DNA of 64,000 bases from a virus. The DNA lies in the IMG/VR virus record IMGVR_UViG_3300035670_000044, positions 62,001 through 126,000 of that record. One strand, 5' to 3'. Numbering within the stretch: the first letter of the stretch is position 1; the number at the start of each line of letters is the position of its first letter. Under the pieces are notes generated by a model. It did no database searches. It was given only the letters and a program-made list of their open reading frames with translations, and had not been told where the DNA came from. Shown in pieces: positions 4,870 through 59,349 of this stretch. The position numbers were made by a program, and so were the translations under genes.

Positions 4870-4889
4870 GTTGAAAGCCAATTAGTAGA
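4870..4889 (+). promoter_or_regulatory. Class A element (putative late promoter) before LRR-like gene
   Basis: GTTGAAAGC at 4870-4878 is followed by AATTAGTAGA. It lies in the 35-bp gap between two virion genes and 23 nt separate it from the ATG at 4902. It is one of 14 copies in this window. Confidence 0.7.
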
Positions 4890-4901
4890 GTGATTTAGGG
4901 G

Positions 4902-7900
4902 ATGTCAGAGTCACAGTTCACGAGTTTTGGCAGATTCTCACGACCTGATATTGGACTGACATCCGACAGCACACGAAACCTGGCGGAAATCTTCGACTCA
5001 GATAAGCGGGAAGCCTTAAGAAATATACTAATTCGTCCGGAAATTCTCGACTCTTTGTACAAAGTGTCTGAGAATATTACCCGAGAAGATCTCAGATCTG
5101 CATCAGGGTTATCTCGCCTCCTCCTGCCATCTCTCAACCAGCTCGATGAGATAACCAACGATAGAGTACCTACTCGGTTATATGTCGACAAAGAGTTTTA
5201 TGCACCGGACACGGCCCTAGGGGGAATTGGATCTCCAGCCCTCAACACGCCCAACGTCATCCTTTTAAACGGTTCTGTACAATGTGAAGGAGTGCAATAT
5301 AGAGCGAACACAATAGGTGACAGACTGTTCACCAACCCTAACCGTGTAAACGTCTCCTTGTCTACGTCTAGAGCAAGCTTATTTAACTCCGAGACTGATC
5401 CGGAAAACACGGGGTACTTTCTTAGCGCGAGGTATCCGGGTTCGATACGTGTTCGGAGGAGGTCACATGTCAACAGAATATTAATCCCAAAGACCTCGTT
5501 TCTCACCAAACCACCCCTTCTTGAGAATCCTACTCACTCAATCCAGGTGAATGTGGACAATGGAAATACTGGGACAATTACTCCAGTAAGATTATTAGCA
5601 ACCAAGAACACCCCGTTACGGGTTTATTGCCGTATGTCTACGGGAAGAGTAACCTTCAAGTTTACAGACTCCGCCTCCCCGTATTTTTTCGGATACCAGA
5701 TCCAACCAGCACAACAACGTCCGAACTCGCCACCCGTAGAATTCCTACCCGTCGCCCCGGTATCTCAACAATCCGGATCTGCTACATTCGTCCTTAACAT
5801 TGACATTACGACGACCGGGTACCAGAATCTCTACGACCTGTATCTGTATCTGTACGTAAACCCTGAAAAAGTCTCGGGAATAGAGTTCTCCGGTATCGAT
5901 ATTCGTGAGTTCCCTGATCGTAAAGACCTGGGATTGATCGGGTTTAATAACCTCCGGGATTTTCGGGTGTCCGACGGCTCAATGACCATCCTCCCTTTGT
6001 GGTTAAAAACCCTCAGGACTAGCTTGAGATCTCTTGATCTGGCTTCTACAGGGGATACATGGCGTAACGGCCCCATGGGCTGGTTCGATATACGTGACTC
6101 TTCTGCAATCCCTTCCTTCACCCATCCACTGTATACCGCTGTCAGTTACCTAACCCTCCCAAAATCTGGTACTTTGATCAATGAGGTAGGAGATGATTGG
6201 AATGGTTCTTCTGGCTCTGGGGGGACTAGAGTGACAGGAATCTTTGAGAAATACATTAGGAATCAATCTAGAACCCCCGGTACTGACTACAGGCAGTTTA
6301 CCGAGTTGACATCACTGTCTCTCGGTGACAAATTTTTGGGGCGTAGCCCTCGCTTCGATGACGTATTTCCAAACCTTCTCAGGTTGTCATGGTCAAGACC
6401 TAACGGTAGCCGTACTTATCGTTTTTTGTTTGGTTCTTTACCTAAAATCAACAACAACGGTTCTGTTATAGATTACAATATAAGTGGGTCTGGAGCAGTA
6501 GGAGGTATCGTCGATATAGGAACATCAACTACTCCATCCAACAATGGCCATATTTCTAAATACAAGATGTCCACGTTTAACGTAGCGGGATACTTCTCGG
6601 TAAGAAATAACATCTCTGGGTATATTAATAACCCGGAGGAAGACTGGTCTAGTTGGAGAACAACAACAACGTCCATAGATTACACTTACACCGGATCAGG
6701 TCTCAGAATTAATCTTCAGTCGGGAACTTGGGAGAATCTTGTATCTCTATCCGCTTCATTCTCTGGGGGAACACTTCTTTCAGGGGATTCCTCCCCCCTC
6801 AATACCCCCAAGCTTCGATTGTTGTCACTATACGGATCTGGAACCACCGGCCCCGTGTTTAAGCTCGGATCGGTATCTAACACTAGCGCTCTCGAATCAA
6901 TCAATATCGGTGCATGTAATAGCATATCGCCTACCGTGTCGGTGGGCATCAATTACCTTCTTCCTTTCAATTTTGCTGAGTCTCGTAATCCCGGAAATGA
7001 ACACAGATTAACAACATTCTCCATCTCGTACTTTGCCCCACTATACAGATTCAGGAACCGAGACCTAGACAACCTGTACAATCTTACTTCCCTAAATACA
7101 TCATACAGCAATCTGACTGGCAAGTATCCGGTCTTCCCGTTAAAACGTCTATTTGACACGGATACAAAATCCGTATCGATTCAATCTGAAAATTCCAGTT
7201 TTTACGATCTCCGCAATTTAAGTATCAACCAGTCCAATTTTTACTTTTCTAGGGACGTAAGAAACCTGATCGTTTGGGGTCAAAATTCTGCCGGTGGTGG
7301 AGCTTTAATCCCGTCGTTTGAGGGAACTTCGACCAGTAGTATCCAAACAATCAATGTATCTAATTCCCAGCCATCGATCTACAGGTCCGACTGGTCTGCA
7401 CCAAATCAACGAAATAGCTGCGTGCGTGATGATGATCCGGCCACAGTGATATCCGGACTTTCCATCTCACGTTCCGTACAGCCCGACCCTGATGATAGCG
7501 TATATACACTGACCGGAGCTAGTAATTTTCGTCAACTGGTCCAGGTTGGGGATTCGGTTAGGTCATCAGTTAACGGATCAATCCTGGCCCGGGTTTTGTC
7601 GATATCAGACAGTAGTGTTATCATCGATTCCAATATCCCTGACCCTCTCCCCACCAGTCTATATTTTACCCGACAAACTAACAGTATCTCAAACTGGTTC
7701 GGGTCAGGTTTTAGCTCCCTACAGGTGTTCCGAGCCAGCAACTGCAAGTTGTCTGGTACACTCAACATCCGTAGCGGATTTGGCAGTATTCGTGACGATT
7801 CCCTCCCAGCCCTAGACCTCAGTAGTAACATGATCTCCGGTTACACTGTAGGAGGTCTTGGACGAATATTCTCCGGAAATAGCAGAAGGATAACTATAGA

Positions 7901-8456
7901 CCTGTCTCGTAATAACCTGAGCACCGAAACAATACGAAGTATTGTATCAGAGATTGCCGATCTCGACGCTTTGAGAAAGTTCAGCAACTGCAGGGTTAGA
8001 TTATCTTTAAATAAACTAGACCCTAGTAATCGCTATTCCAACTACACCCAGAACGAAGTATTCCCTGTTACCGTTTTGTCAGGATCAGGCATTGTCACGT
8101 CTCTCTCTCGCAACGAGTTGTTTAAGGTATTTACTGAGACGACTATCACTAACCCGGATGGAACTACAACAACCGAGCGTGTTCAAACGGGAACTATTAC
8201 TGTGAGTGTCCCAGGAGCTTTGGTGGGTAATGTATATTATAAAACCAAAACGGATAGTGCTCAGGTTGCTCAGGAGAACCCAGTCGCGTTAAAGTTTAAA
8301 ACTTTACGGGGCATATTAGTAGACCTAGGTTTCACTTACGTTTCCCCTAGTACAACACCAGTAATTACATCAACAGTTTACAGTAACGTCACCACTCGCT
8401 ACCAGTCAATCCTTGATCATACTGATTATGATCCAGCCGACCTAGTTAACCCTTAA
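4902..8456 (+). CDS. Virion protein with leucine-rich-repeat-like segments, 1184 aa
   Basis: ATG at 4902 lies 23 nt after a class A promoter element. Several segments look like irregular leucine-rich repeats: LRSLDLAST near residue 375, LTSLSLG near 468, LTSLNTSYSNLTG near 730, LQVFRASNCKLSG near 945, and the clearest pair LDLSSNMISG and ITIDLSRNNLS near 970-1000. The rest is Ser/Asn/Gly-rich and beta-rich. LRR folds are protein- or glycan-binding, so a host-recognition or tail-fiber role is plausible. The repeats are visible in the sequence, the structural role comes from the neighbours, and the ligand is unknown. Confidence 0.65.
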   Translation: MSESQFTSFGRFSRPDIGLTSDSTRNLAEIFDSDKREALRNILIRPEILDSLYKVSENITREDLRSASGLSRLLLPSLNQLDEITNDRVPTRLYVDKEFYAPDTALGGIGSPALNTPNVILLNGSVQCEGVQYRANTIGDRLFTNPNRVNVSLSTSRASLFNSETDPENTGYFLSARYPGSIRVRRRSHVNRILIPKTSFLTKPPLLENPTHSIQVNVDNGNTGTITPVRLLATKNTPLRVYCRMSTGRVTFKFTDSASPYFFGYQIQPAQQRPNSPPVEFLPVAPVSQQSGSATFVLNIDITTTGYQNLYDLYLYLYVNPEKVSGIEFSGIDIREFPDRKDLGLIGFNNLRDFRVSDGSMTILPLWLKTLRTSLRSLDLASTGDTWRNGPMGWFDIRDSSAIPSFTHPLYTAVSYLTLPKSGTLINEVGDDWNGSSGSGGTRVTGIFEKYIRNQSRTPGTDYRQFTELTSLSLGDKFLGRSPRFDDVFPNLLRLSWSRPNGSRTYRFLFGSLPKINNNGSVIDYNISGSGAVGGIVDIGTSTTPSNNGHISKYKMSTFNVAGYFSVRNNISGYINNPEEDWSSWRTTTTSIDYTYTGSGLRINLQSGTWENLVSLSASFSGGTLLSGDSSPLNTPKLRLLSLYGSGTTGPVFKLGSVSNTSALESINIGACNSISPTVSVGINYLLPFNFAESRNPGNEHRLTTFSISYFAPLYRFRNRDLDNLYNLTSLNTSYSNLTGKYPVFPLKRLFDTDTKSVSIQSENSSFYDLRNLSINQSNFYFSRDVRNLIVWGQNSAGGGALIPSFEGTSTSSIQTINVSNSQPSIYRSDWSAPNQRNSCVRDDDPATVISGLSISRSVQPDPDDSVYTLTGASNFRQLVQVGDSVRSSVNGSILARVLSISDSSVIIDSNIPDPLPTSLYFTRQTNSISNWFGSGFSSLQVFRASNCKLSGTLNIRSGFGSIRDDSLPALDLSSNMISGYTVGGLGRIFSGNSRRITIDLSRNNLSTETIRSIVSEIADLDALRKFSNCRVRLSLNKLDPSNRYSNYTQNEVFPVTVLSGSGIVTSLSRNELFKVFTETTITNPDGTTTTERVQTGTITVSVPGALVGNVYYKTKTDSAQVAQENPVALKFKTLRGILVDLGFTYVSPSTTPVITSTVYSNVTTRYQSILDHTDYDPADLVNP

Positions 8457-8460: not shown

Positions 8461-10098
8461 ATGTCATCCGGACTTTTTAGCAAAAACAACTTATCAGAAA
8501 ACGGACTTAACGCTGTCGATGCTTTACAGAAGCTGTATGGACCCCAGGTGCAGGAGGACATCAGTTTGTTCGCGTTTTCGGGGAGGCTGGAGTCCAGGGT
8601 TTCCTCGGACAACCAGTTGTATGGGTTAGTTAACGAGTCTATTTCTGACTCAAGCGGAAACGTATCCCCTCGTACTAAGTTTATCACAAACACTTTTACC
8701 TTTTCAGAAAACAATCTGGTGTGGATAGACCGGTCGGAGGGCTATGTCCTCGACAAACGAGCATCTGGTGAGCAGAGTACCGGAGCCCCGGTGAAGTTCT
8801 CGGTCAACGGGTCAGTGGTCAATACGGAGTTTGTGGGCACGGGAACCCAGTACGAGGTCAGGAATGGTTCGGGTGTTCTAGTCCCACTACCAGCTACGGT
8901 AAACGTCAACCTCGCAGGGGTTGAGTCCGGATCACGTAGCTGCGTCGTCCAGGTAACTGTCAACGCGAACGGCACTTTAAGCCGGCCTGGAGTGACAGTG
9001 CTGACCCCCGGGTCAGGATATATCGACAACGAGCTTCTCGAGCCTGTACCGGCCTGTAACCCCCATGACGATCCGTCCGAAGACAAATGTATGAGGTATA
9101 CTGGAAACTCCCTATACCACGTCACCTATAACCAAAATACAGGTACCCAGGGATATAAAGCCCTTCTCCGGAACACTAAGTACCAGTATACCGTTAAATT
9201 TTCTGGCCCGGATGGCTTTTTCTTGTACGACAACAAAGTCTCGGAATGGGTGTACTTAGGGGTAAGTTATAATACGACCCAGGTATTACCTAAACTCCCA
9301 GTACCTGTACTTCAAATTAACAGATACGATACAATATATCCCCAAAACCTTACTCATCTGTATAAGCTGGATGCCAAGTCCTTGTTCTTCTCTTACGGGG
9401 ATTCCTATCAACCTGAGGGCAACCTTAGCTCCAGTATCCGTTCTATATCTCAATCGGTCGAGGATATCAGTTCTTCACTCCAGACTTTCCCCCAAAACGT
9501 CAGGATCCAGGCAAAAATTGGTGATACCACCAATGACTTGGGCATCCCGTATAACATTTTGTCCGGCCAAAATATTCGATCGGATTACCGGGTCATCTTC
9601 AGGGATCCAGACGGTGTCCTGGACAACCCATCTCTTAGTTTTTTCACCCTTAGAAACCTTAATCAGCCAGGAGAGGTGAGATCGGGAAATGTTTCCGTCC
9701 CTGGAATATGGCTTTTCACTGGTGACAAATATCAAAGAGTATTTAGCTCAGACGATAAGCCGTTTTTTAGCCAGTCGAACATGGATTACCTCAGCCCGAT
9801 ACTAAGTAAGTTTAGTTCCGGGTCAGTCGTTTCCGTCTCGTCGTCGGGTGAGTATAAATATGGCATTAGCGCTGGATACTATAAACCCAACGAACCACTA
9901 AACAATACATCTGTTAGAGGATTTAACACCTCCGTCGGTACGTTGATTCAGAATCTATCCCTTACATTAAACAATGGCGGATTTGTTTATCACCGAACTC
10001 TACCAGTAACCACAGTACGTGGGAACATTAAGTCCTGGCCGTTGTTCTCCTACCGGGACGGAGTCTCGACACTCGACGCAAAATTTCTAGCTATCTAG
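8461..10098 (+). CDS. Putative virion structural protein, 545 aa
   Basis: ATG at 8461 is 4 bp after the LRR-like gene, so it is probably translated from the same message. The N-terminal 90 residues are polar. Residues about 115-190 carry a beta-sandwich-like stretch, including a GSGYIDNEL-type motif seen in many virion proteins. A CNPHDDPSEDKC loop contains two cysteines near residue 200. No enzyme motif or membrane segment is seen. Its 3' end overlaps the end of the opposing 1033-aa gene by 12 bp, with no terminator in between. Family not recognised; virion role inferred. Confidence 0.6.
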   Translation: MSSGLFSKNNLSENGLNAVDALQKLYGPQVQEDISLFAFSGRLESRVSSDNQLYGLVNESISDSSGNVSPRTKFITNTFTFSENNLVWIDRSEGYVLDKRASGEQSTGAPVKFSVNGSVVNTEFVGTGTQYEVRNGSGVLVPLPATVNVNLAGVESGSRSCVVQVTVNANGTLSRPGVTVLTPGSGYIDNELLEPVPACNPHDDPSEDKCMRYTGNSLYHVTYNQNTGTQGYKALLRNTKYQYTVKFSGPDGFFLYDNKVSEWVYLGVSYNTTQVLPKLPVPVLQINRYDTIYPQNLTHLYKLDAKSLFFSYGDSYQPEGNLSSSIRSISQSVEDISSSLQTFPQNVRIQAKIGDTTNDLGIPYNILSGQNIRSDYRVIFRDPDGVLDNPSLSFFTLRNLNQPGEVRSGNVSVPGIWLFTGDKYQRVFSSDDKPFFSQSNMDYLSPILSKFSSGSVVSVSSSGEYKYGISAGYYKPNEPLNNTSVRGFNTSVGTLIQNLSLTLNNGGFVYHRTLPVTTVRGNIKSWPLFSYRDGVSTLDAKFLAI

Positions 10099-13000
10099 CT
10101 TAACGTAGGCGTAGTAAGAGTCTTTCACTTTTTCTTGATTACCGATATGCTCCAAGACATCTTCGTCATAGACGGAGGGATCTAGAGGTACTTCAATTTT
10201 CATTCGGTGTGTGTAGTCGTTAGACAGCAAAGTTACCGGTGTTGACAGAGTCTGAATAGCGCTAAGACCATTAAACTCCAGCTTCTCCGTAACCGTCAAA
10301 GTGTTACCACCAAGTCCTGACTTAGTGTGATCACCCCACAGGACATCGTAGTTCCCTGGGGGTTTGTTATCATATAAGTTAGTGTCACTGATTGCAATCT
10401 CAGAGAGCAATGGATTACCAATAGCATAGGGAGGATAACACAGTCCTCCACCATACTCAGGCAGGTCAAATCCAAATGGTGCAACTCTGTCAGAGGGTGG
10501 TTTAGGGAGTTCGCTGGCTACGGAATCTAGCCCAGGGTTGTAAGTTATCTTGAGGACATCGCTAAAGGATAGACCCTCACCCGTGTCTACAAATCCAAAC
10601 TGAAACGCAATATTTTCTTCTGTATAGAACCTGACAAACTTCCCGTTAAACAGTGAAAGTTCGCTACCGCCAGCCAAAATCGATGCAAGGGTAGTTGTGA
10701 ATACGACTAGTTCGTAACCGTTCACTGTCTCTTTACCTACGGATAGAGTCAGGGGTGCTACGAAACTCCTTACGTTCGTCGTGAACCCAGAATCGTCTGC
10801 CACCTGTATAGCCGTAACTGTTATCGGTGAGATCCAGGCCGAACTTGAAAAGGCGGGGAGTCCGATAGAGGTCGGATTGTCGCTGGATGTTACTGTACCA
10901 GGAGTAGTGTGCAGATAATACTTACCCGATGTCAGGTACATCCTGGCCGAATTTGAGACAGTATTAGCAAACGCCACCGTTTTGTGATTAGGGTCTCCGC
11001 CCAGGTCATTAGCCCCCAACGTATTTGTTCCTGTGAACGTCGAGTTGTTAACCGGAAAACCTGACAGAACCATCCGACCGCCTTCCCCTAACCGATTAGG
11101 TGTCAACCTAAGCCCGATGTAGTTTGATCCACGATTGTCAGAGACACCGTACCTAGCCTCACCCAATATAATATTGGGTTTGTTACTATACACACCCGAT
11201 CCGTTCCCGTATAGCCCGATTCCAGTAGCCGAAGACTGAAGTGACGATTTAAACGAGTTAGGGATCATCCCGTCCAAAGGTGTGTTGGTTTTTGATACCG
11301 TCGACCCACGGTCAAACGGATGACCCTCAGTAATTTTCCACCAGTTCGGACGGGAATTATAGGGTCTCTTTTGAATGTTAGGGGTATAACTGCCATCTAC
11401 CATGTCGGCGTAAGTCTTATGGCTGACCGAAGGAGATGCGATGCGGCCTTTCCACAAAGCGTTCAGGTTTTCGTTGAATTGGCTAGGGCGGTTAGGAGAG
11501 ATTTTTAAGGTGTACGTACCGGAAGTCAATCCTGTTATCGTACTGGACACAGTAGTACCGTTAGTGGTTAAGGTTATAGCAACCGGATCCGGTAACACAT
11601 TATCGTCTTTAGCCACCAAACCATATGTTACCGACGCATTAGCATCCTGTAGGATGGAGATGATCCGGTTCAGCGTACCGCTTGTTATCGACCACGAGCC
11701 ATCCGTACCGGAGAGAGTGATATTATGCTCTTCACTGTAAAACGTTGTAGCCGACGGTACAGTTGTAGTTTTAATAAACAGATTGGGTTCGGTGGGAATG
11801 ATGACGTTTCTGTCCGCTTTATCCGGTCCACCTCGAAACATGCGGATGGTGATTGGAACATAAGAGACCCAGTCGTCTACACCAGAACCTGTAACATACT
11901 TAAATAGACTATTAACCCCCGCCGTGCTGAATGTTTCCGAAGAAACATAAGTGTCCTCATTTTCTTTTGCCGACACGCCCCTTGTATTAAAAACATTCAC
12001 CCAATACGGGCTGGTTGCACCTATACCCAAATCGATTCGGATGTCTACATTTGTCTGAACTTGCAGTCCGTAGATCCCAGGACCTATCCTGAGATATCCG
12101 TCCCACCTTACCCCCCAGTTATACTGTTCTCCTCGCAGTGGTGATGGGTTATCAAACCACTTCATGTTGGAGTCTTCGGTGACGCTATTTTCGCCAATCA
12201 ATTCTTGTTCCGTAGCCGTCCACCTTGTATCGACATACCCTTTACTATACCAATACCCCCTTTGAACAGACGGGACGACAACTCCGTTCTCGCTACGGAG
12301 GACTCGTGCAGATGTATCTGGATCGATATCGTCCGCCCCGTAGGCTAAAGATATCTCCGGATCTCCCGGCATCTGCCCATACCACTCCGGGACATTCAGG
12401 GTGGAGTAAGGTCTGGTAAGGAGGAATGACGCAGTGACGAATACAGTGTTGGTTAGCAGGTTACGGATGCTGGTTAGATTGGCTAGACCTTCTTCTACCG
12501 TCCATGCTGTTCCCGTTAGTCGTAGTGATATGCCGGAGCCAGATAGAGGTATACTTCCGCCCCGACCCGGTATCGTATACCCGTCTAAGTCCAGGACTAC
12601 AGACGTCTCCGTGCCAAGCACGTTAGAAGGCAAGATATTTGTGACATTGTCCGGACCTTTCAGGCTAGAAACGGTTACATTGGATCCGGTAAACGAAAAT
12701 TTAACGTACCCGATCACCTCAGGATCCGGATTTCGGTAGAATTGCGCGTCTGGGCCGCTGTGGAGTTCAGGAAAACTACCTTCTCCGTAGAAGGAGTTAG
12801 CGAGAGACAGGCGGTCTTCGATCCGGATTCGGGGGGTGATAGAGACCGTACTGCCCAGTGTGCCACCTCCAACACTAGCTCCGGACAATGGCAACAGAAA
12901 CTGTTTATCGATTCCCTCGTCAATAAAACTCTCAGTTACAGACCAGTCTACCCCAGTATAAGGCCCTCCGTACTGATTTCTCTCCCCTGTATCGGTTTCG

Positions 13001-13188: not shown

Positions 13189-13205
13189 GGAAAACTATTC
13201 CGCTG

Positions 13206-13224
13206 CTACTTTAATGCTTTCAAC
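13206..13224 (-). promoter_or_regulatory. Class A element for the 1033-aa virion gene
   Basis: The minus strand reads GTTGAAAGCATTAAAGTAG, with 27 nt to the ATG at 13188. It is back-to-back with a plus-strand copy 9 bp away. Confidence 0.65.
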
Positions 13225-13233
13225 GAAAAACCC

Positions 13234-13249
13234 GTTGAAGGCAAAGTAG
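13234..13249 (+). promoter_or_regulatory. Class A-like element before small membrane protein
   Basis: GTTGAAGGCAAAGTAG differs from the consensus by one base in the GTTGAAAGC core. It is preceded by CCC as in several other copies and lies 19 nt before the ATG at 13262. Confidence 0.55.
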
Positions 13250-13261
13250 GTGGCAAGTACT

Positions 13262-13516
13262 ATGACACAGAAAATACTGAAGGCGACCGAGAGTACGGCG
13301 TTCCTGGTGGGTCAAATTATCTTTTGTTTGGCATTTCTATCCTCCTGCGAGATTCCAAACTGGGTATATGGTCCACGATTACCCAATGAATGTGTTGACA
13401 GGTGGATGTTCGCGACAGGATTGTTCGTGCCTTCCGGGCTACAAGCCGGGCTAGGGAACAGCTCCCCAGCCCGGACGAAACGCCCTACCCCTCGTACAGA
13501 TCCCGATACGATTTAA
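13262..13516 (+). CDS. Small putative membrane protein, 84 aa
   Basis: ATG at 13262 is preferred over an in-frame GTG at 13250, because a class A-like element ends only a few bases before that GTG. Residues about 12-31 (STAFLVGQIIFCLAFLSSC) form a hydrophobic helix, and a second weaker hydrophobic stretch (WMFATGLFVPSG) follows; the tail is basic and Pro-rich. The gene runs against its neighbours and overlaps the 3' end of phoH by 32 bp. A holin-like or membrane-accessory role is possible but unproven. Confidence 0.5.
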   Translation: MTQKILKATESTAFLVGQIIFCLAFLSSCEIPNWVYGPRLPNECVDRWMFATGLFVPSGLQAGLGNSSPARTKRPTPRTDPDTI

Positions 13517-14988: not shown

Positions 14989-15010
14989 GTTGAAAGCCAT
15001 ATATAGTAGA
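14989..15010 (+). promoter_or_regulatory. Class A element before 15024 gene
   Basis: GTTGAAAGC at 14989-14997 is followed by CATATATAGTAGA; 26 nt separate the core from the ATG at 15024. Confidence 0.7.
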
Positions 15011-15359: not shown

Positions 15360-15377
15360 GTTGAAAGCTATATGAGA
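15360..15377 (+). promoter_or_regulatory. Class A element before 15416 gene
   Basis: CCC-GTTGAAAGC at 15357-15368 is followed by TATATGAGA. The 47-nt distance to the ATG at 15416 is the longest in the set; two short out-of-frame ATGs lie between. Confidence 0.6.
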
Positions 15378-19260: not shown

Positions 19261-19818
19261 ATGCTCCTCATCAAGTCCATCCTCGGCATGTTCATGCGCG
19301 ACGTCATCGAGGACTCGATACGTGGTGTCGTCAAGCGAGAAGCGGTAGCACAACTGTCAGAATCGGTCCGGGCTGAATTTCTCCGAACCGTAGCGGAGGG
19401 CTACACTCGCGAAGTCACCCACAACATCGGACAATACGTCCGCTCGGTAGAGGCCATGTCCGTGGTGGTGTCGAGCGACAACACCGGAGAACGGCTATAC
19501 ACCGCCCTCCAGAGTTCACTGAAAAAGCTCGAAGTCGAGCTGGAACGTCAGGGTCCCGACTCCGCAGTGGTTAAATACCTGCAGGAGAAATACGGGGTAC
19601 GGGACGACCGGGCTAATGCTTACTCCGTGGTGGGTCTGCAACAACGTCCGGTATACTCAATGTTGTCAGGATACTCCGAATCTACCCAATCCGATCAGCC
19701 CTGGCTCAACCGTGCACTGGCCGACTCCCCTGAGATCGGGGAGGTCCTGGCCACCGAAGCGTCAAGGATCTTCGACAGGTTGTTCAGTAGCTCTACCGAA
19801 GTAGCGAGCTCCCTTTGA
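19261..19818 (+). CDS. Helical protein of unknown function, 185 aa
   Basis: ATG at 19261 follows the hub gene by 6 bp in a CCGCC-ATG context. The protein is mainly helical and charged (for example RLYTALQSSLKKLEVELERQ near residues 80-100), with a Ser-rich C-terminus and no membrane segment. It is likely co-transcribed with the hub gene and may be a tail or chaperone component. The last 57 bp overlap the opposing DCL-like gene. No family recognised. Confidence 0.55.
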   Translation: MLLIKSILGMFMRDVIEDSIRGVVKREAVAQLSESVRAEFLRTVAEGYTREVTHNIGQYVRSVEAMSVVVSSDNTGERLYTALQSSLKKLEVELERQGPDSAVVKYLQEKYGVRDDRANAYSVVGLQQRPVYSMLSGYSESTQSDQPWLNRALADSPEIGEVLATEASRIFDRLFSSSTEVASSL

Positions 19819-20484
19819 GCTATTCTCGGAGGCGTCCAAGACCTGGAACTCCGCATGCAAGGCGTGATAGTCAAACCAGGACTCGGCCATTTCAACCGAT
19901 TCCAATCTGCACACCGTGCCGCGACACCTAACCGGTATTGTTTCCAGGTCAAACCCATTCTCCCTGCACCACTCCTCCACTAGACGGATAAACGGGTACA
20001 CATGATCTACATGATACGGCCCGAAGATCGGGCGTCCGGTCAACGACGACTTTATGACCGATTTTCCCGCAAACCGTCTCCGGTATTCCCTGATCTGCGG
20101 CTCGATAACATCCCTTAAAGCCCGCAACACCTCCCTACGATTGACTTTGCCCTGATCGGGTATGTTGGTATTGGGGAACATCGCCCGGACAACGACCTGC
20201 TTGCCCACCCACACCTCATGCCCGGAGTTAGGAGTGACAAGCACAATCCCTTTTACCCTCTTCCCGTTAAAGGACTTCTGAACGACCCTAAACTGCACTT
20301 GCCCCCTATCCATGATCCTGGAGAACCTTGAGATCCGCCTAAGAACATCAGACAGGAATGACGAATCGTCCTGTGATACCGTCAAACCGATCTCGTACCC
20401 CGATACTATCGCCGACCATCTCGCCCCAAATCTCTTCTTGTTGTACTGGACCCCCGCTACCTCTACGTACCTTCTGACGGACAT
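19762..20484 (-). CDS. DCL (DUF3223)-like protein with C-terminal HNH-like region, 240 aa
   Basis: The N-terminal part (residues about 1-100, with YEIGLTVSQDDSSFLSDVL) resembles the DCL/DUF3223 domain. The C-terminal part has GPYHVDHVYPFIRLVEEW near residues 157-174 and SWFDYHALHAE near 207-217, a His-Asp-His arrangement like HNH-type nucleases often found after DCL domains. Function unknown; nuclease activity is possible. It is the last gene of the thioredoxin-sigma operon and overlaps the sigma gene by 22 bp, so it may be translationally coupled. Family assignment is by pattern and moderately uncertain. Confidence 0.55.
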   Translation of the reverse strand: MSVRRYVEVAGVQYNKKRFGARWSAIVSGYEIGLTVSQDDSSFLSDVLRRISRFSRIMDRGQVQFRVVQKSFNGKRVKGIVLVTPNSGHEVWVGKQVVVRAMFPNTNIPDQGKVNRREVLRALRDVIEPQIREYRRRFAGKSVIKSSLTGRPIFGPYHVDHVYPFIRLVEEWCRENGFDLETIPVRCRGTVCRLESVEMAESWFDYHALHAEFQVLDASENSSKGARYFGRATEQPVEDP

Positions 20485-21182
20485 TCCGATTCTCCCAAAA
20501 TATAAGCCATTAGCTCACTAGTTTTTTTCCGTATCCCCTCGGAAGAGTTAACTCCGGGATATTTACGAAAAATCGTAGAATTTGCCCGTTTTTCGATGTA
20601 AGTATCTGACAAAAACTCGATTTCAATTTCAGGGAGGCAGAACAGACGATCGATGACACCCTGATAATCGTCTAGCATTCGGTCCAAATTGTCGTCATTC
20701 AGGTCAACGCTGTCTACAGGCATCTCTGTATCCTCGTTAATCTCGAGGAAAGTGGTCTGGTAAGCGGCTCGAGTCTCCGTGACCATCGAGATAGGAATGT
20801 CTGTCAACTTAGCCAATTCCTTGTCAGACATATCTGGATCGGATCCAATATGCTTTCTGATCCTCATGTAGCAGTCTGCGTATGTACGCGGAATCCTGAT
20901 CATCCTGGAGTGATCACGGAGGTAGTTAAGCACCTGGAAAGTAAGTGAGCGGTTTAGCCAAGTACTAAAGTTGGCCTTACTGGGGTCCCATTTGTCATAG
21001 AGTTTTACCATGGCCTCCAGGGCTACAGAGCGTAAATCCTCAAATGGAAGACCACTGAATTGTGATACTTTCCGGGCCGTATGTCCCGCTTTCCACATGT
21101 TCTCCCGGATATGCTTGTCCCGGGTCCTCTCATACTCTGACCGGTGTACACCTTTAAGGGGCTCTAGTTCTAATGGTCTCAT
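20463..21182 (-). CDS. Sigma-70-family RNA polymerase sigma factor, 239 aa
   Basis: Residues about 45-100 match sigma region 2: PFEDLRSVALEAMVKLYDKWD, then FSTWLNRSLTFQVLNYLRDHSRMIRIPR, containing the core-binding and -10-recognition helices. Residues 115-148 (DPDMSDKELAKLTDIPISMVTETRAA) resemble region 3. A canonical region 4 helix-turn-helix is weak or absent, so recognition of a -35 box may be reduced. It starts 1 bp after the thioredoxin stop and overlaps the next gene. It is a strong candidate for the factor that redirects host polymerase to phage promoters (class A or B), but which class is an inference. Confidence 0.8.
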   Translation of the reverse strand: MRPLELEPLKGVHRSEYERTRDKHIRENMWKAGHTARKVSQFSGLPFEDLRSVALEAMVKLYDKWDPSKANFSTWLNRSLTFQVLNYLRDHSRMIRIPRTYADCYMRIRKHIGSDPDMSDKELAKLTDIPISMVTETRAAYQTTFLEINEDTEMPVDSVDLNDDNLDRMLDDYQGVIDRLFCLPEIEIEFLSDTYIEKRANSTIFRKYPGVNSSEGIRKKTSELMAYILGESECPSEGT

Positions 21183-30330: not shown

Positions 30331-30349
30331 CTTCTAAAGGGCTTTCAAC
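30331..30349 (-). promoter_or_regulatory. Class A element for baseplate-terminase unit (minus)
   Basis: The minus strand reads GTTGAAAGCCCTTTAGAAG, 24 nt before the GTG at 30316. With its plus-strand partner it forms the 19-bp inverted repeat GCTTTCAACGGTTGAAAGC. Confidence 0.75.
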
Positions 30350-30350
30350 G

Positions 30351-30369
30351 GTTGAAAGCAGGGTAGAAG
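30351..30369 (+). promoter_or_regulatory. Class A element for 30381 gene (plus)
   Basis: GTTGAAAGCAGGGTAGAAG lies 21 nt (core to start) before the GTG at 30381. It is divergent from the minus-strand copy with a single base between the two cores. Confidence 0.7.
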
Positions 30370-30877: not shown

Positions 30878-30896
30878 GTTGAAAGCCCTATAGAAG
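30878..30896 (+). promoter_or_regulatory. Class A element before fiber gene
   Basis: GTTGAAAGCCCTATAGAAG is one of the two best matches to the consensus. The distance to the GTG at 30921 is 34 nt. Confidence 0.75.
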
Positions 30897-37531: not shown

Positions 37532-38593
37532 ATGAGCAAAAAACCCAAACCAGACGACAACTTCGTCGTCTACGCTTATTCTCGCAGTGAGGGTAGTGAA
37601 AACGGCCCCGAGGATAGTTTTTACTACATTGGAAAAGGGAGACCTGAGCGCCCATACAACTGTAAAAGCAGGAAGCATATAAGATGCCCAAGAGACAAAA
37701 AGAAGAATATTCATATTCTCCACAAAAGATTGAAAGAGAATGTAGCATTTGACTACGAGATAAAACTCATCCAATTTTATGGAAGAATTGATACTCAGGA
37801 GGGTTGGCAGACTCTTAGAAACTTGACTGACGGGGGAGAGGGAGTTTCTAATCCTTCCTCTGAAACTAGGAGAAAAAAATCAGTAAGATTTAAAGGTAAA
37901 AGAAACCCAATGTACGGAAAAATCCCTTCAAAGGAACATAGAGAACTAACATCAAAAATACACAGGGGTAAAAATAACTTTAATTACAAACCACGTAACT
38001 GGTACCATCCTGACTATGGAGTTATACTCCAAAAATCATGTTGCGATATCATAGAAATGTACCCTAAAGATAACTTAATATCTTCTGGACTTTCCGCAGT
38101 TGCTCTCGGTAAAAGAAAATATCACCGTAATTGGATGTGTCTAGGTGATGAAAAAAATCCACCAGAAGGAATCATGACTCAAGATGAAAAAAGGATAGAC
38201 TTGGGGAAAAGATTAGACTGGTATCACAAAGAACATGGAGAGGTTAAGGGCGTATCCGCCACTAAGTTGGCCAGGATGTTTCCTGAAAAGGGTTTAGACC
38301 CTAGCTGTCTAACCAAGGTCTCTAAGGGCAAGAAGAAAATCTACAAGGGGTGGGTACCCTTGAGCAAAAAGGAGCTGGCTGACAACCCCCCTGTCCGTGG
38401 CATTCTAAGAGACTGGTACCACCCTGATATCGGAATTGTCAGGGGAGTAACGGCGAGCCAAATGCCTAAAATGTTTCCTCAATATGGGTTACGGGTCGGT
38501 AGTCTCAACGATCTCGCCAATGGTAAACTGAGGACTCACAGCGGGTGGTCCTTGCCACCCTGTAGACTAGACGAGCTAACCCCCTCCTGTTGA
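37532..38593 (+). CDS. GIY-YIG homing endonuclease 1 with three C-terminal DNA-binding modules
   Basis: Residues about 12-100 form the GIY-YIG-type nuclease: VVYAYSRSE, then FYYIGKGRPERPY, and LIQFYGRIDTQEGW with the family Glu/Arg positions. A NUMOD3-like NPMYGK motif follows near 126. The rest holds three copies of a ~45-residue module (about 157-201, 229-274, 295-339), each opening with a (N/D)WYH....G motif and closing in GW or NW, which probably reads DNA. The first half is much AT-richer than the phage background, the second half less so. Its stop codon TGA lies inside the next gene's GTTGAAAGC element. Confidence 0.85.
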   Translation: MSKKPKPDDNFVVYAYSRSEGSENGPEDSFYYIGKGRPERPYNCKSRKHIRCPRDKKKNIHILHKRLKENVAFDYEIKLIQFYGRIDTQEGWQTLRNLTDGGEGVSNPSSETRRKKSVRFKGKRNPMYGKIPSKEHRELTSKIHRGKNNFNYKPRNWYHPDYGVILQKSCCDIIEMYPKDNLISSGLSAVALGKRKYHRNWMCLGDEKNPPEGIMTQDEKRIDLGKRLDWYHKEHGEVKGVSATKLARMFPEKGLDPSCLTKVSKGKKKIYKGWVPLSKKELADNPPVRGILRDWYHPDIGIVRGVTASQMPKMFPQYGLRVGSLNDLANGKLRTHSGWSLPPCRLDELTPSC

Positions 38594-38605
38594 AAGCTAA
38601 ACAGA
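38589..38605 (+). promoter_or_regulatory. Class A element before 38619 gene
   Basis: GTTGAAAGCTAAACAGA with 21 nt from core to ATG at 38619. The TGA within GTTGA is the stop of the upstream homing endonuclease. Confidence 0.65.
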
Positions 38606-44462: not shown

Positions 44463-44480
44463 GTTGAAAGCCACATAGAG
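44463..44480 (+). promoter_or_regulatory. Class A element before 44494 gene
   Basis: GTTGAAAGCCACATAGAG, 22 nt from core to ATG 44494, only a few bases after the HNH stop. Confidence 0.7.
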
Positions 44481-50695: not shown

Positions 50696-50714
50696 GTTGA
50701 AAGCCATATAGAAG
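50696..50714 (+). promoter_or_regulatory. Class A element before baseplate/tube-type gene
   Basis: GTTGAAAGCCATATAGAAG, 23 nt from core to GTG 50728. It is among the best matches to the consensus and marks the start of the third virion block. Confidence 0.75.
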
Positions 50715-50727: not shown

Positions 50728-52503
50728 GTGGCGGAATTTCCCCCAATCTCTGAGAATTTTACCCCCACCGTATCTTCTCCCGAAGTGTCGTGGGAAAGCG
50801 CCTTAACAACCCCGGTCCAGGGATATGTGGATACCGATGTTTCCGGGTCCTTTGACTCAGATACTTCCGATGAACCCTATGCGTTCCCGTCAGTCAGCGG
50901 GGCCGCCGTCTCTGTAGAACAAAGCCTTAGAAAAATCTCCTTCGTTCCGGGTACATCGGGGCAGATGTCATCGGCCATCGCATATATCCGTTACTGGTCC
51001 CGTAGGGGTACACAACAGAAGACAGCCGTGAGGGACAATCCCGTAAACGGGGCCGTCTCCGACCCTCAAGACGCCCTTCTGAGCCAGATAAACGCCCTGT
51101 CGTATGGCACCGATCTGGACCTGGGGCTCTCAATCCAGCCTCCCTCGCAACCAGGACCGGCGCTGACCATTCCCACTAACACGGCGTACCAGAGTCGCCC
51201 CAGGCAACCCGTGCCGACTCCCACCTCCCCCGCCGGCCCGTCATCCCTAAACCGTCTCGGATCGATCTTCAGCGCCAATCCGGGGGGAGTGACGGCCCCG
51301 GCCTGGGCCAACCCGTTCGCCTCCCAACCAGCCTCCCCGTCACCCGACAACGCCGTCTGGCAGTTTCTATTCAACCCGGAGGAGTTACAACTATCGTCGG
51401 GTCCGGACTTCAACCGGGCTGAGACTTGGGGCGTGTCGGACCCCGCCAATAGCGGCCAGCCGTTATCTTGGCGCAGTAATAAGAACCGCAAGCTGACATT
51501 CGGCAAAGTGCTGTTGCACGGGTATACGTTTGGGCGGAGAGTCGATAGCCTTGAAAAGGGCCTGCAGCAGTTGTTTCTCGCTCGGGATGGAGAAAATGGG
51601 GCTGACGGTCCTCCGGTCCTCGAGTTCGTGTGGGGTCAGCGCGTATTCGGGCCCTGCGTAATCCAGAATATCCAAGTTCGGGAGAAAGCGTGGGACAAAG
51701 GCCTTCTGGTCAATGCCGAGGTGTCCTTCGAACTGGAGCAAGTCCCGGAGTGGACCATTAATGACGAGTTTGTGGATGTGCTGAGGCCGGGACGACAGTC
51801 AACGGTCAACGATCCGACAGTTGTGAGTCAAACCGCCCCTGGTGAAGGGAGTGTCGATGACGATGAGGAGAGAGAGCCACCAAAAACTGCCCCTGAAACC
51901 TCCCCACAGACAGGTTTAGACCCCACCCTTTGTAACTTTGCTGTTCAACAAAGTAAAATATTCCAAGGGTTGTTCAAAAGAGCTGATGCACTGCTAAAAA
52001 TTACTTTTTTTGATCCGTCTTTGCTTACCCAAAAGTCCGAGTTAGATTCTGTCCTTAGGGGATTTTTAAACGCAAAATCTAATTTTTATTCAAGATCACA
52101 AGAGGTGGGTAAATCTGTAGACTCTAAGTTAAATAACAACGGGTGCGTACGAAATAAATACCAAGATACAATCAGAAAAATTAACTCTGAGAGCGGCTCT
52201 GAAGATCAGAAAAAAGTACAAGCTTTAAAATTTGCACACGGTTGCATAAAGGAGACAAAACAGTATATTGATGACTGGCAACAAACATCTCCTAAATGTA
52301 AAGCTCAGAGGGTATCTGGTCAACAGTTAAAAAAATTTAAGGAAAAACAGGCCAAATTAAATAAACAGTGCGAGCAGATTAAGCCGGGAAAATCTTGTTC
52401 TGGTTTTCCAAACCTTGGTGAAAGAACCCTGTCAAAATGCAATTCCGGAAAAACTCTGGTATGTGTCAGAAATACCTGGCAATTGAAGTACCCTAGGGGA
52501 TAA
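50728..52503 (+). CDS. Baseplate/tube-adaptor protein of CIS-tube type, 591 aa
   Basis: GTG start fixed by the class A element. Residues about 210-345 (WQFLFNPEELQLS, then KLTFGKVLLHGYTFG and a CVIQNIQVREKAW-type end) match the contractile-injection tube/LysM-adaptor family that connects tube and baseplate. The N-terminal 200 residues are Pro/Ser-rich. From about 51900 the DNA becomes clearly AT-rich and codes a Lys- and Cys-rich helical extension (residues about 395-591) unlike the rest, which looks like an acquired cassette. It is followed directly by the tape-measure gene. Confidence 0.65.
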   Translation: MAEFPPISENFTPTVSSPEVSWESALTTPVQGYVDTDVSGSFDSDTSDEPYAFPSVSGAAVSVEQSLRKISFVPGTSGQMSSAIAYIRYWSRRGTQQKTAVRDNPVNGAVSDPQDALLSQINALSYGTDLDLGLSIQPPSQPGPALTIPTNTAYQSRPRQPVPTPTSPAGPSSLNRLGSIFSANPGGVTAPAWANPFASQPASPSPDNAVWQFLFNPEELQLSSGPDFNRAETWGVSDPANSGQPLSWRSNKNRKLTFGKVLLHGYTFGRRVDSLEKGLQQLFLARDGENGADGPPVLEFVWGQRVFGPCVIQNIQVREKAWDKGLLVNAEVSFELEQVPEWTINDEFVDVLRPGRQSTVNDPTVVSQTAPGEGSVDDDEEREPPKTAPETSPQTGLDPTLCNFAVQQSKIFQGLFKRADALLKITFFDPSLLTQKSELDSVLRGFLNAKSNFYSRSQEVGKSVDSKLNNNGCVRNKYQDTIRKINSESGSEDQKKVQALKFAHGCIKETKQYIDDWQQTSPKCKAQRVSGQQLKKFKEKQAKLNKQCEQIKPGKSCSGFPNLGERTLSKCNSGKTLVCVRNTWQLKYPRG

Positions 52504-56206: not shown

Positions 56207-56222
56207 GTTGAAAGCCCTATAT
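56207..56222 (+). promoter_or_regulatory. Class A element at start of 56221 gene
   Basis: GTTGAAAGCCCTATAT; the ATG at 56221 lies inside the TATATGG part of the element, so the start of the gene or the role of this copy is unclear. Confidence 0.55.
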
Positions 56223-56658
56223 GGGTAAGTCACTCTCTCGGCTTAAAGATTTCTCCTCCTTTGGTCTCGACACCCAAGAGATGATTTTGTCTCAGCTCAG
56301 CTCCATAGAGCTGGACCGTATTGGCCCTAAGTCCATCGCGACTGTGGGCAAAAGCTTAATCAAAATTATCGCTCAGAGTCATCGATACCAGGAGGAATCT
56401 GACAATGATGAGGTCCGGGAGAATTGGCTGGCTGTTCGGGAGATGAGTCTGGATATCCTCGAGTCGATTCTGGCCCGGTTCCAGGAGCTTAGTGACAATG
56501 CTGAAATCGCCGAGTGGGACAGGTCGGCCGTGCTCAGCCTCCTGGCCGACATTAGCAAGGTGTGTCATGATGAGCAGAAACGCACCGAGGAGCAGATAAA
56601 GGCGGGGGCGGGCAAAGAGCTCAGCACCGAGCTGTTGAACGAAATCCTAGGAATTTAA
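56221..56658 (+). CDS. Helical protein of unknown function, 145 aa
   Basis: The annotated ATG 56221 lies within a class A element. If the element is a promoter the message would begin downstream and the in-frame ATG at 56281 (caagag-ATG) would be used, giving 125 residues. The protein is helical and acidic (VRENWLAVREMSLDILESIL, FQELSDNAEIAEW). The position after gp25 suggests a tail or baseplate assembly factor. No family recognised. Confidence 0.55.
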   Translation: MGKSLSRLKDFSSFGLDTQEMILSQLSSIELDRIGPKSIATVGKSLIKIIAQSHRYQEESDNDEVRENWLAVREMSLDILESILARFQELSDNAEIAEWDRSAVLSLLADISKVCHDEQKRTEEQIKAGAGKELSTELLNEILGI

Positions 56659-56662: not shown

Positions 56663-56872
56663 ATGATGAATATCGATCAGGCTCGAGCTGCAGACCCGGT
56701 AGTGAAAATGGCCGACGCCGGAATCTCAATCCTCGACCCCAAGAAGCCCAAGAAGCACAAGGAACGAGAGGATGTGTCCGAGGCCCCCGGTGTAACCGAG
56801 CCGGTGTTCCAGGCCGAGGAGAGCAATTTGAATATTGAGATCCCGCAGGGTTGGAAGGTTTCCGGGCGTTGA
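56663..56872 (+). CDS. Small protein ending in IPQGWKVSGR, 69 aa
   Basis: ATG 56663 (ACACC-ATG). The middle is a Lys/Glu-rich KKPKKHKEREDVSE stretch, and the C-terminus IEIPQGWKVSGR resembles IPDGWEV of the 40595 protein and VPSGWNV of the 59363 protein. The stop TGA lies within the following GTTGAAAGC core. Function unknown; possibly an assembly or targeting peptide. Confidence 0.5.
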   Translation: MMNIDQARAADPVVKMADAGISILDPKKPKKHKEREDVSEAPGVTEPVFQAEESNLNIEIPQGWKVSGR

Positions 56873-56885
56873 AAGCAAGATAGAG
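56868..56885 (+). promoter_or_regulatory. Class A element before 56899 gene
   Basis: GTTGAAAGCAAGATAGAG, 22 nt from core to GTG 56899; overlaps the stop codon of the previous gene. Confidence 0.7.
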
Positions 56886-56898: not shown

Positions 56899-58704
56899 GT
56901 GGATTTCCAAGACCAGCCCAAACCAGAAAAAGTTGCCCGTAACCCGAACAACTTCAATATCCTGAAGGGTGGAAAGGTTGATCCGCGCTCCAAGTTGTAT
57001 CAGAGGTCGGTTGCTGGACGCGAACAACTTAAGGATTACCTGAGCAGGTTGTCCAACAGTGGCATGGATGAGGCTGATGTGTTCATGTCTGGCGTTAAGA
57101 GCCTGATGAACCGGGGTCACGGTTACGTCGGAGCGTACCTGGATAGCAAGAACCCGGGACGTCGGTACGAAAAGAACCAGGCCATGGCCATCACCGACAA
57201 AGTGATGACTGATGAGGGGATTGGCGAACATCCTGGTGCCAGGTTGACGCGACCGAAGGTCAAAGACGAGGATGGCAATATCGATAAAGAGGCCACGAAG
57301 GAGGCCAAGGCTAAAAGAAAAGAGGCCAATGCTGGGCGCGGATTCGGTCCCCAGCAGGCTCCCGGACCCTCAGCTAAACCGGTAGGTCAGCAACGCAAAG
57401 AGGGAAAGCGCGAGAGCACGGGACAGGCCCTGGAAGATAGCCGTCGAGATGGTGTAGGTGACAAAGACACAGGTCCGGTTTCGGAGTGGCAAAACACCCT
57501 CAAGAGTAGACTGGAGGGTGAGGCTACCACTCAGGACGTGTTGTCCGCATTCCAGAAACAATATCAGAGCCAGATTGGTGGTAAGAAGAAAGCCGCTCCG
57601 GGTGGAGCAGCTCCTAGCCCCAGCGGGGCTCCGGGAAGTGCAGCACAGCCCCCGGCCGAAGAGTCTGCTACCCCTGAGGAAGAAACGGAAGAGACCGGAA
57701 AACCCTCGGCTGATGGGGTTACCATCTCGAGTAAGTTTAAAGAACTGGTTGAGGATAATATCAAGAGCAATCTTCCCTCAACTGACAAAAATGCACTTGA
57801 GAGTAGTATCCAAGAAGCCATAGAAATCCTGGAAGATGACTATGATGTGGATCCGGAAGTTGCCAGAGCTGCGATATTTAGGAGGTTCAATAATAAGCTA
57901 ATTGGTGGGAGAAAAATTGTTTTTGACCCGTCTTCCGCACCAGAGGCTTCTGGCCCTAAGGGGCCCGGACAGCAAGAGTCTGCGGCCCCTACCGCTGCGC
58001 CGGAGTCTAAGACCCCACAATCCGGACAGCAGGAGGCTGCGGCACCACAAGGTGGCGGTCAAGAGGCCCAGGCTCCGGCCTCTGCGGCACCTGAGAAACC
58101 CAAAGGTGGCCTCAATATCCCCAAACAACCTGCTCGCAAGGGTGGTGGTGGATTCACCACCGAAGTCGGTAAGCAGGCCATCGACACCATCCGCCAAGCC
58201 GTATCTGAAGGCAAGAGCAAGGGGGAGGTTGTCGAACAATTCAAGCAGGGCACTCTGTTCCCAGGAGGTCTAGTCACCGACACCGCCCAAACCAACCCGC
58301 TGGAGGGAGGTAGCACACCGGCAAGTCCGGCTTCCCCTGGAGCCCCCCAGACCCAGGAGGAGAGAGGTGGCAGCCTTCTCGATAAGCAAGGCCAGGCTAA
58401 GGACTTCCGCAAGTCTGGCCCTCAACCTACAGGCGGTGGAACTGCCAGACAGCTTCCGCTTTCCCTAGGTAGAGATAATAGCGCCGCCAAGTTAAGGGGT
58501 AGAGCCGATGTTGAAAAGAGGCGCCTGGCGAAACAAGAAAAATCCCTCGGTAAGCCTAGCCCTCGTCCCCGCAAATCAGGGAAATCCCCCGTCCAGCCCG
58601 AGCTATTTACAAAGTCCGGCAACCCCCGTAAATTCAATACGTCAGAGATGAGTAGCATGTCCTATGATGAGTTCTCTCAGTCCGTACGCTCCATGATGCG
58701 GTAA
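56899..58704 (+). CDS. Pro/Ala-rich disordered virion-like protein, 601 aa
   Basis: GTG start set by the class A element. Residues 1-100 are folded (KDYLSRLSNSGMDEADVFMSG helix). From about 130 onward it is low-complexity, rich in Pro, Ala, Gly, Lys and Gln (PSGAPGSAAQPPAEESATPE). A folded helical insert near residues 280-335 is coded by AT-richer DNA (57740-57930). A KGGLNIPKQPARKGGGGF stretch and a short helical C-terminus (MSYDEFSQSVRSMMR) end the protein. It could be a scaffold, internal or head-associated protein. Confidence 0.5.
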   Translation: MDFQDQPKPEKVARNPNNFNILKGGKVDPRSKLYQRSVAGREQLKDYLSRLSNSGMDEADVFMSGVKSLMNRGHGYVGAYLDSKNPGRRYEKNQAMAITDKVMTDEGIGEHPGARLTRPKVKDEDGNIDKEATKEAKAKRKEANAGRGFGPQQAPGPSAKPVGQQRKEGKRESTGQALEDSRRDGVGDKDTGPVSEWQNTLKSRLEGEATTQDVLSAFQKQYQSQIGGKKKAAPGGAAPSPSGAPGSAAQPPAEESATPEEETEETGKPSADGVTISSKFKELVEDNIKSNLPSTDKNALESSIQEAIEILEDDYDVDPEVARAAIFRRFNNKLIGGRKIVFDPSSAPEASGPKGPGQQESAAPTAAPESKTPQSGQQEAAAPQGGGQEAQAPASAAPEKPKGGLNIPKQPARKGGGGFTTEVGKQAIDTIRQAVSEGKSKGEVVEQFKQGTLFPGGLVTDTAQTNPLEGGSTPASPASPGAPQTQEERGGSLLDKQGQAKDFRKSGPQPTGGGTARQLPLSLGRDNSAAKLRGRADVEKRRLAKQEKSLGKPSPRPRKSGKSPVQPELFTKSGNPRKFNTSEMSSMSYDEFSQSVRSMMR

Positions 58705-58717: not shown

Positions 58718-58726
58718 CGGGGGACT

Positions 58727-59344
58727 ATGAACACAGTTGTTTACCAGTGGTTGAGAAAAGAAGGAACCCCATACTATATTGGAATTGGTAATCCTAGGAG
58801 GCCTTACAGAGGCAGAAGACTCTGTGGTTGCCCTCCTCCGAGGGATAGGATCGTTATCCTGCATGAGCATCTTGAGTGGGAGGAGGCTTGTAGAATTGAA
58901 AAAGAACTTATTGCTTTTTACGGAAGGAAGGACCTCGGGACAGGTATCTTACGTAACCTGACTGATGGAGGAGAAGGTATTGTTAACCTTTCTGAAAAGT
59001 CCAAGGGAAAAATATCCAAAGCTAACTCAGGAAAGAATCACCCTTTCTTTGGTAAAGAACGTCCTGAGGAGACTAAAAAGAAGATATCGGATATGCACAA
59101 AGGTAAAAAATTATCGGAAGAGACTAAGAAAAAGCTATCAGAAGCCGGGATAGGAGAAAAAAGCCATAATCGTATCCCAAGAGACTGGTGGCACCCGGTT
59201 CACGGAACGGTTTTACAAAAATCAGCGTCTGAGTTGGCAAGATTATTTCCAGAGCAAAAGCTCAATAGGGGCCATTTGGCAGAAGTTGCTAGAGGGGGAG
59301 GAAAAAGGTTTCAACACAAAGGCTGGATATCGTTGAAAGCTTAG
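58727..59344 (+). CDS. GIY-YIG homing endonuclease 3, 205 aa
   Basis: VVYQWLRKEG, TPYYIGIGNPRRPYRGR and IEKELIAFYGRKDLGTG give the GIY-YIG domain in residues 1-90. NUMOD3 repeats (SEETKKKLSEAG pattern) span about 95-145, and one WWHPVHG....HKGW module closes the protein. It is AT-rich against the background. The final codons and stop overlap the GTTGAAAGC element of the following gene (AAA-GCT-TAG). Confidence 0.85.
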   Translation: MNTVVYQWLRKEGTPYYIGIGNPRRPYRGRRLCGCPPPRDRIVILHEHLEWEEACRIEKELIAFYGRKDLGTGILRNLTDGGEGIVNLSEKSKGKISKANSGKNHPFFGKERPEETKKKISDMHKGKKLSEETKKKLSEAGIGEKSHNRIPRDWWHPVHGTVLQKSASELARLFPEQKLNRGHLAEVARGGGKRFQHKGWISLKA

Positions 59345-59349
59345 TATAC
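59332..59349 (+). promoter_or_regulatory. Class A element before 59363 gene
   Basis: GTTGAAAGCTTAGTATAC, 22 nt from core to ATG 59363. This spacing favours ATG 59363 over the in-frame TTG at 59354. Confidence 0.65.

Follow-up and report, generated by a model that had tools for sequence, protein, structure and literature searches.

What does a nine-base word do that recurs just upstream of genes, on both strands, in a 64,000-nucleotide stretch of viral DNA? The stretch, here called the window, comprises bases 62001-126000 of the IMG/VR virus record IMGVR_UViG_3300035670_000044 (127,396 bases), and the word is GTTGAAAGC. Comparison with related phage sequences leads us to conclude, with a probability of roughly 0.7, that it is a late promoter made up of a single extended -10-like block, which would be read by a phage-encoded sigma factor on the host RNA polymerase.

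Thirteen exact copies of GTTGAAAGC occur in the window, against a mean of 0.37 and a maximum of 3 in dinucleotide shuffles. The whole record contains 34 copies (26 on the plus and 8 on the minus strand) and only one of the reversed word, whereas 2000 permuted 9-mers averaged 0.9 copies in the record and never exceeded seven. The initial annotation had listed 14 cores in the window; 13 were found exactly where it placed them, and the fourteenth, at 13234 (+), is an A-to-G variant, GTTGAAGGC. It had also placed the cores on both strands in the sense of the downstream gene, and an open reading frame (ORF) of at least 80 amino acids indeed starts 24-64 nt downstream on the same strand at 29 of the 34 record sites, compared with 8% of random positions. 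The distance from core end to start codon in the window is mostly 21-27 nt, in good agreement with the 19-27 nt originally claimed for 11 of the 14; start codons in the record and in the IMG/VR loci are ORF-based. The sites are given below, where virion labels are those of the annotation of the cyanophage S-TIM5.

4870..4886, plus strand: GTTGAAAGC-CAATTAGT, before a 1184-amino-acid virion gene (4902-8456) with an S-TIM5 virion ortholog.
13208..13224, minus strand: GTTGAAAGC-ATTAAAGT, before a 1033-amino-acid gene (10087-13188, minus strand) with a partial S-TIM5 virion match.
13234..13250, plus strand: the variant GTTGAAGGC-AAAGTAGG, back to back with 13224(-), before an 84-amino-acid ORF with its ATG at 13262.
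14989..15005, plus strand: motif before a 109-amino-acid gene (15024-15353), an S-TIM5 virion ortholog.
15360..15376, plus strand: motif before a 255-amino-acid gene (15416-16183), an S-TIM5 virion ortholog.
30333..30349, minus strand: motif heading a minus-strand run from 30316 to 19762 (virion ortholog, baseplate, TerL, sigma).
30351..30367, plus strand: motif before a 158-amino-acid gene (30381-30857), back to back with 30349(-).
30878..30894, plus strand: GTTGAAAGC-CC-TATAGA, before a 1722-amino-acid tail fibre gene (30921-36089).
38589..38605, plus strand: motif before a 186-amino-acid gene (38619-39179).
44463..44479, plus strand: motif before a 171-amino-acid gene (44494-45009).
50696..50712, plus strand: GTTGAAAGC-CA-TATAGA, before a 591-amino-acid gene (50728-52503).
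56207..56223, plus strand: motif before a 145-amino-acid gene near 56221 (start codon uncertain).
56868..56884, plus strand: motif before a 601-amino-acid gene (56899-58704).
59332..59348, plus strand: motif before a gene with its ATG at about 59363.

That these sites mostly precede virion genes, as was first suggested, fits the BLAST assignments: S-TIM5 virion orthologs follow 4870, 14989, 15360, 30349(-), and 30878. The genes after 13224(-) and 50696 are virion-like by partial matches, the latter matching part of an S-TIM5 virion protein and, weakly, Pfam CIS_tube; the other downstream genes carry no assigned function. The description of the sites as intergenic holds generally but not strictly, because those at 38589, 56868, and 59332 overlap the 3' end of the preceding gene.

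Genuine core variants are rare. At the place corresponding to the variant site 13234, a relative (L001/L152) has the exact GTTGAAAGC, and in this part of the window (13184-13262) the small gene behind the site is conserved in relatives together with the exact word; the copy in the window phage has therefore drifted. Two further candidates from a leave-one-out scan, GTGGAAAGC and GGTGAAAGC, were rejected as core variants, since for the most part they are conserved coding sequence within the genes for sigma and TerL. A collection-wide scan for GTTGAAAGCNNTATAG gave at least 120 stretches, most of which were judged to be chance occurrences and were not used.

A second conserved part lies downstream of the core. 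The triplet TAG occupies positions 14-16, counted from the first G, at 16 of the 34 record sites (about 0.4 expected), and at the record sites TAG after GTTGAAAGC is almost confined to these positions. The consensus across the record and its relatives, 82 sites in all (the IMG/VR loci include near-identical ones), is c-GTTGAAAGC-N3-R-TAG-AAG, with no conserved column upstream of the core except a weak C immediately 5' of it. The second block had originally been given as TATAGA, but this exact form is present at only two of the 13 exact window sites (30878 and 50696), the conserved form being N3-R-TAG-AAG. When the divergent intergenic region at window 30317-30380 is aligned across 11 copies, the two 9-bp cores and their TAG triplets do not vary, whereas the spacers and flanks drift. 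A host sigma-70 promoter (-35 TTGACA and -10 TATAAT, 16-18 nt apart) was rejected, as no second block at such a spacing was found in 115 sites; the initial annotation had likewise set the motif apart from standard sigma-70 promoters. Nor was TTGAAA retained as a -35 element, since many transcription starts would then fall at or past the start codon.

The record is, on its gene content and order, that of an uncultured S-TIM5-like (Aurunvirus) cyanomyovirus. A 24-kb part of the window had no megablast match among phage records, and tblastn was needed; TerL is 58% and the tail sheath 55% identical to those of S-TIM5 and its kin, the record matches 82 S-TIM5 genes in largely collinear order, and TerL, sheath, DNA polymerase, and sigma are orthologous and in the same order as in the S-TIM5-like lineage. 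Extended to the whole record and its relatives, the search finds that the motif marks this entire phage lineage. IMG/VR relatives retain GTTGAAAGC at orthologous sites. S-TIM5 itself, a cultured relative, has the word only twice, and its most over-represented 8-mer is GTTTAAAG (36 copies versus 16.8 expected), which differs in having T rather than G as base 4, a free position 9, and a weak TAG part; S-TIM54 has 38 copies of GTTTAAAG. The S-TIM5 word precedes many genes orthologous to those marked by GTTGAAAGC, and orthologous genes share a site in the record and S-TIM5 (Fisher p 0.003). No link of GTTGAAAGC or GTTTAAAG to a cyanophage promoter was met in the titles and abstracts surveyed, which did not cover the S-TIM5 genome paper.

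The distribution of GTTTAAAG within S-TIM5 is informative as to function. Twenty-seven of the 36 sites lie 20-100 nt upstream of an annotated same-strand gene, and 18 of these 27 marked genes carry a virion annotation, compared with 47 of 212 overall (hypergeometric p 9e-8); in the auxiliary metabolic gene (AMG)/tRNA region at 8.3-36.5 kb, no site precedes any of the 67 genes. Tight same-strand runs contain 114 genes, of which only 2 are marked; among the 98 genes that follow a strand switch or a gap of at least 30 nt, 25 are marked, and each of the seven divergent gaps with the word lies next to a virion gene or to the direct partner of one. These numbers bear on the idea that the word acts in RNA, as a translation enhancer or processing site in the 5' leader, rather than as a promoter. 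Its constant position shortly upstream of start codons would suit such a role, but genes inside tight runs also need translation and are almost devoid of sites, which are concentrated at strand switches and gaps; the virion bias of the divergent gaps is a further objection, as is the variation of the word with the sigma clade described below. We consider an RNA-level element highly improbable.

The gene for the proposed reader lies towards the distal end of the minus-strand run that 30349(-) heads, next to another conserved gene.

20463..21182, minus strand: phage sigma factor of 239 amino acids (Pfam Sigma70_r2, 8e-9), the proposed reader of the motif.
19762..20484, minus strand: 240-amino-acid protein directly downstream of sigma, conserved there in nearly all relatives.

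The sigma factor is the ortholog of S-TIM5 SigF (40% identity), and its gene adjoins that of TerL in phages of the lineage. The likeness between the window system and that of SigF and GTTTAAAG in S-TIM5/Aurunvirus extends from the orthologous sigma to gene order around TerL and to motif placement at orthologous genes. Regions 2-3 have a PDB profile match to cyanobacterial SigA, and the structural model predicts region 2, region 3, and, confidently, a four-helix C-terminal domain resembling region 4; a fold search with this model gave matches along the whole of full-length sigmas in the PDB. Region 4 is thus suggested by the model and the fold search, and because the mean predicted local distance difference test score (pLDDT) is 75 and the predicted TM-score (pTM) 0.43, the model is usable for domain order and fold, and not for details. 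The neighbouring protein measures 191-240 amino acids across the sigma loci and has a relative in the distant cyanomyovirus S-CBWM1 at 25% identity. Its C-terminal half is predicted to have a 2k0m-like fold (E 1.3e-3, TM-score 0.75 to 2k0m), which does not tell its role; it may be a co-factor or partner of sigma. A scan for host-type promoters and terminators around the sigma operon found no more than in shuffled sequence.

Neither a single-subunit nor a multisubunit RNA polymerase was detected with Pfam models, for which the T7 and cellular controls were positive, and the phage therefore presumably uses the host core enzyme. SP6-type promoters are of similar length, with rigid spacing and a TATAGAAG-like ending, and the motif, compact, strictly spaced, and about 19 bp long with TATAGAAG at its end, could be taken for a promoter of a T7/SP6-type single-subunit polymerase, for which back-to-back pairs would also be possible. 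However, PF00940 had no match in the record, in complete S-TIM5, in S-TIM54, or in three relatives (T7 control, E 1e-109); ORFs of at least 700 amino acids correspond to virion, DNA polymerase, or other genes of S-TIM5; and the sigma factor fits instead. The likelihood of a T7/SP6-type promoter is accordingly very small. The phage late-promoter type put forward in the initial annotation is supported by the orientation of the sites, their spacing from start codons, their enrichment before virion genes, and conservation in relatives, and it also agrees with the absence from the S-TIM5 early/AMG region and with the presence of a phage-encoded sigma.

Does the word change with the sigma? Seventy-eight IMG/VR loci were collected by their sigma gene alone, short or distal loci with neither word being uninformative. 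Phages whose sigma is at least 57% identical to that of the window use GTTGAAAGC, and those at 45% or less use GTTTAAAG. Base composition is not the cause, because GTTTAAAG is used at 51-56% G+C (L191-L197, L219-L221) and GTTGAAAGC at 44-47% (L155, L164, L165). On the sigma tree the motif change amounts to one split (a count of two being ascribed to a tie at L164), and the association is consequently suggestive rather than replicated. Among the residues fixed differently in the two sigma clades, four fall in region 2.4 (L76V, S79C/N, T81Q, Q83H); neither the PR.Y.D segment of region 3.0 nor the GTT of the DNA word varies.

The Synechococcus phage S-CBWM1 (MG450654, L231-L233) encodes a homologous sigma, gp152 (E 8e-8), and has a separate one-block motif, GGGTAAAAT, before about 30 genes, virion genes included. 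Its GGGTAAAA occurs 34 times versus 5 for the reversed word, 30 copies preceding a start codon; the first base is mostly 31-36 nt from that codon, and T is preferred as the next base. S-CBWM1 thus resembles the window phage in its sigma, its one-block element, and the equal distance to start codons, but its genome is only distantly related, its sites lie almost all on one strand, and its word is different. Aligned, the words are GTT-GAAAGC (window clade), GTT-TAAAGN (S-TIM5 clade), and GGG-TAAAAT (S-CBWM1), the last of which resembles an extended -10 with a hexamer close to TATAAT. A comparable enriched block was not found in the Cylindrospermopsis phage Cr-LKS4, whose sigma fragment is 30% identical (GTTTAAAG, 14 copies versus 4 reversed).

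These comparisons bear on the register in which the motif is read. The initial annotation took TATAGA as the -10 and GTTGAAAGC as an adjacent recognition block; in such a register TAGAAG could also be the -10, and the upstream block would be read by the phage sigma or a helper protein. The strictly fixed distance of TAG from the core, and its conservation in the window's clade, speak for that arrangement. Nevertheless, exact TATAGA is rare; in the GTTTAAAG clade this part has given way to AT-rich sequence, the first block being kept; leaders would often be only about 1-10 nt long, as start codons are mostly 26-36 nt after the first G; and the S-CBWM1 block, at equal distance, is itself -10-like. 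The proposal is probably wrong, although less improbable than the others considered here. Because the TATAGA part decays across lineages while the 9-bp block stays, GTTGAAAGC is better read as a -10-type element, and a register of one block is favoured because GGG-TAAAAT looks -10-like at the same distance from start codons. On sequence grounds, core positions 4-9 would correspond to about -12 to -7, which puts the conserved A5 at -11 and the transcription start near position 15-17, where TAG stands in the window's clade; this assignment could be off by a base.

Opposite copies abut at two gene borders in the window's clade, 0 or 1 bp apart. Sites 30349(-) and 30351(+) together form GCTTTCAAC-G-GTTGAAAGC, and in many relatives an abutting pair yields GCTTTCAACGTTGAAAGC, a perfect 18-bp palindrome; no convergent motif pairs were seen in the pair analysis. 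The other core occupies the DNA directly upstream of each abutting core, which argues against a required -35 sequence. The perfect palindromes could also be viewed as dimer sites for a MotA-like activator recruiting host sigma-70 RNA polymerase, single sites then being half-sites. Most sites, however, are single and of one polarity, convergent pairs are lacking, no conserved TATAAT -10 is present at the usual distance downstream, and the co-distribution with the sigma clade is left unexplained; we regard such an activator as quite improbable.

The late-promoter reading can be put in mechanistic terms. Host sigma would read the early genes, and the phage sigma, joined to host RNA polymerase to form the holoenzyme, would then open late, mainly virion, units on both strands, each preceded by one copy of the word. 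Recognition would be of one contiguous c-GTT-GAAAGC, with GTT at about -15 to -13 and GAAAGC at about -12 to -7, and no -35 would be needed; the downstream stretch would melt and transcription start at or beside TAG, leaving leaders of about 12-22 nt before the start codon. For divergent units two copies could abut head to head as the 18-bp palindrome. Once made, the phage sigma, whose gene lies distally in the 30349(-) run, would presumably also raise its own level. Several points weigh against this scheme. The association between sigma and motif is one deep split plus S-CBWM1, not many independent events, and any other lineage-specific regulator would give an equal pattern. The model has a region-4-like domain, which reads the -35 in ordinary sigmas, yet no -35 is seen; and in the window's clade the TAG/TATAGA part shows clear conservation, beyond what is usual for a bare start site. 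Finally, the sigma gene ends a motif-headed run, and its first expression therefore needs another promoter.

More tentatively, and at a little less than even odds, the scheme may extend to a whole cyanophage sigma family (S-TIM5-like, window lineage, and S-CBWM1-like) in which late transcription would start from a contiguous extended -10 block of 8-9 bp without a -35, the region-4-like domain being kept. The word would have been rewritten (GTT-GAAAGC, GTT-TAAAGN, GGG-TAAAAT) along with region 2.4 changes, including a switch at the -12 equivalent, and paired promoters would form an 18-bp palindrome firing both ways.

The gene complement of the window includes virion, baseplate, tail-fibre, TerL, PhoH, ribonucleotide reductase, primase, and lysis genes. 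Homing-endonuclease-like ORFs (PHROGs and NUMOD3 matches) stand among ordinary phage genes at window 37532-38593, 45740-46537, and 58727-59344, and others are present in L138 (4929-5882 and 6897-7610); L138 also encodes a 389-amino-acid transposase-family protein (phrog_506; 14394-15563, minus strand) that adjoins the tail sheath gene. The two ends of the virus record itself (G000; L137 1-127 and the end of L141) form a perfect 127-bp inverted repeat, either a real terminal feature or an assembly artefact.

A close known parallel is the late system of T4-type phages, T4-like cyanophages among them, in which gp55 reads the late promoters (in T4, of sequence TATAAATA) and which depends on the sliding clamp gp45 and the co-activator gp33. 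T4 late promoters have no -35 and occur in either polarity (PMC2988020). The gp55 late system is similar in having a phage sigma-family protein and one short block in many copies, on both strands and mostly at virion genes; the T4 block occupies the -10 position, where that of the window would lie as well. It differs in sequence, TATAAATA versus GTTGAAAGC-N3-R-TAG-AAG, and in that the window sigma, unlike gp55, is predicted to have region 3 and a region-4-like domain; nor is the window phage T4-like in its structural genes. As both sequence and sigma architecture differ, the window system is not a member of the T4 gp55 type. Another likeness is to the group 3 sigmas of cyanobacteria and cyanophages, where P-SS2 ORF003 is also a small sigma gene adjoining a terminase gene, terL, in a cyanophage; it likely recognises regulon-specific sequences, but no matching motif was reported (PMC2784084). 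Ma-LMM01 is likewise a cyanomyovirus with temporal gene classes, but it has no phage sigma, and all of its temporal classes use SigA-like -35/-10 promoters (PMC5780444).

The motif would provide a readable late-gene signal for cyanobacterial viruses of a widespread yet little-studied group, and late units could then be called directly in metagenomic genomes. The three words associated with one sigma family would constitute a natural experiment in promoter specificity, combining a change at the -12 equivalent with a few region 2.4 substitutions. If the proposal is true, the motif would add a second kind to the phage late promoters that lack a -35, one served by a sigma that seemingly keeps the -35-reading domain.

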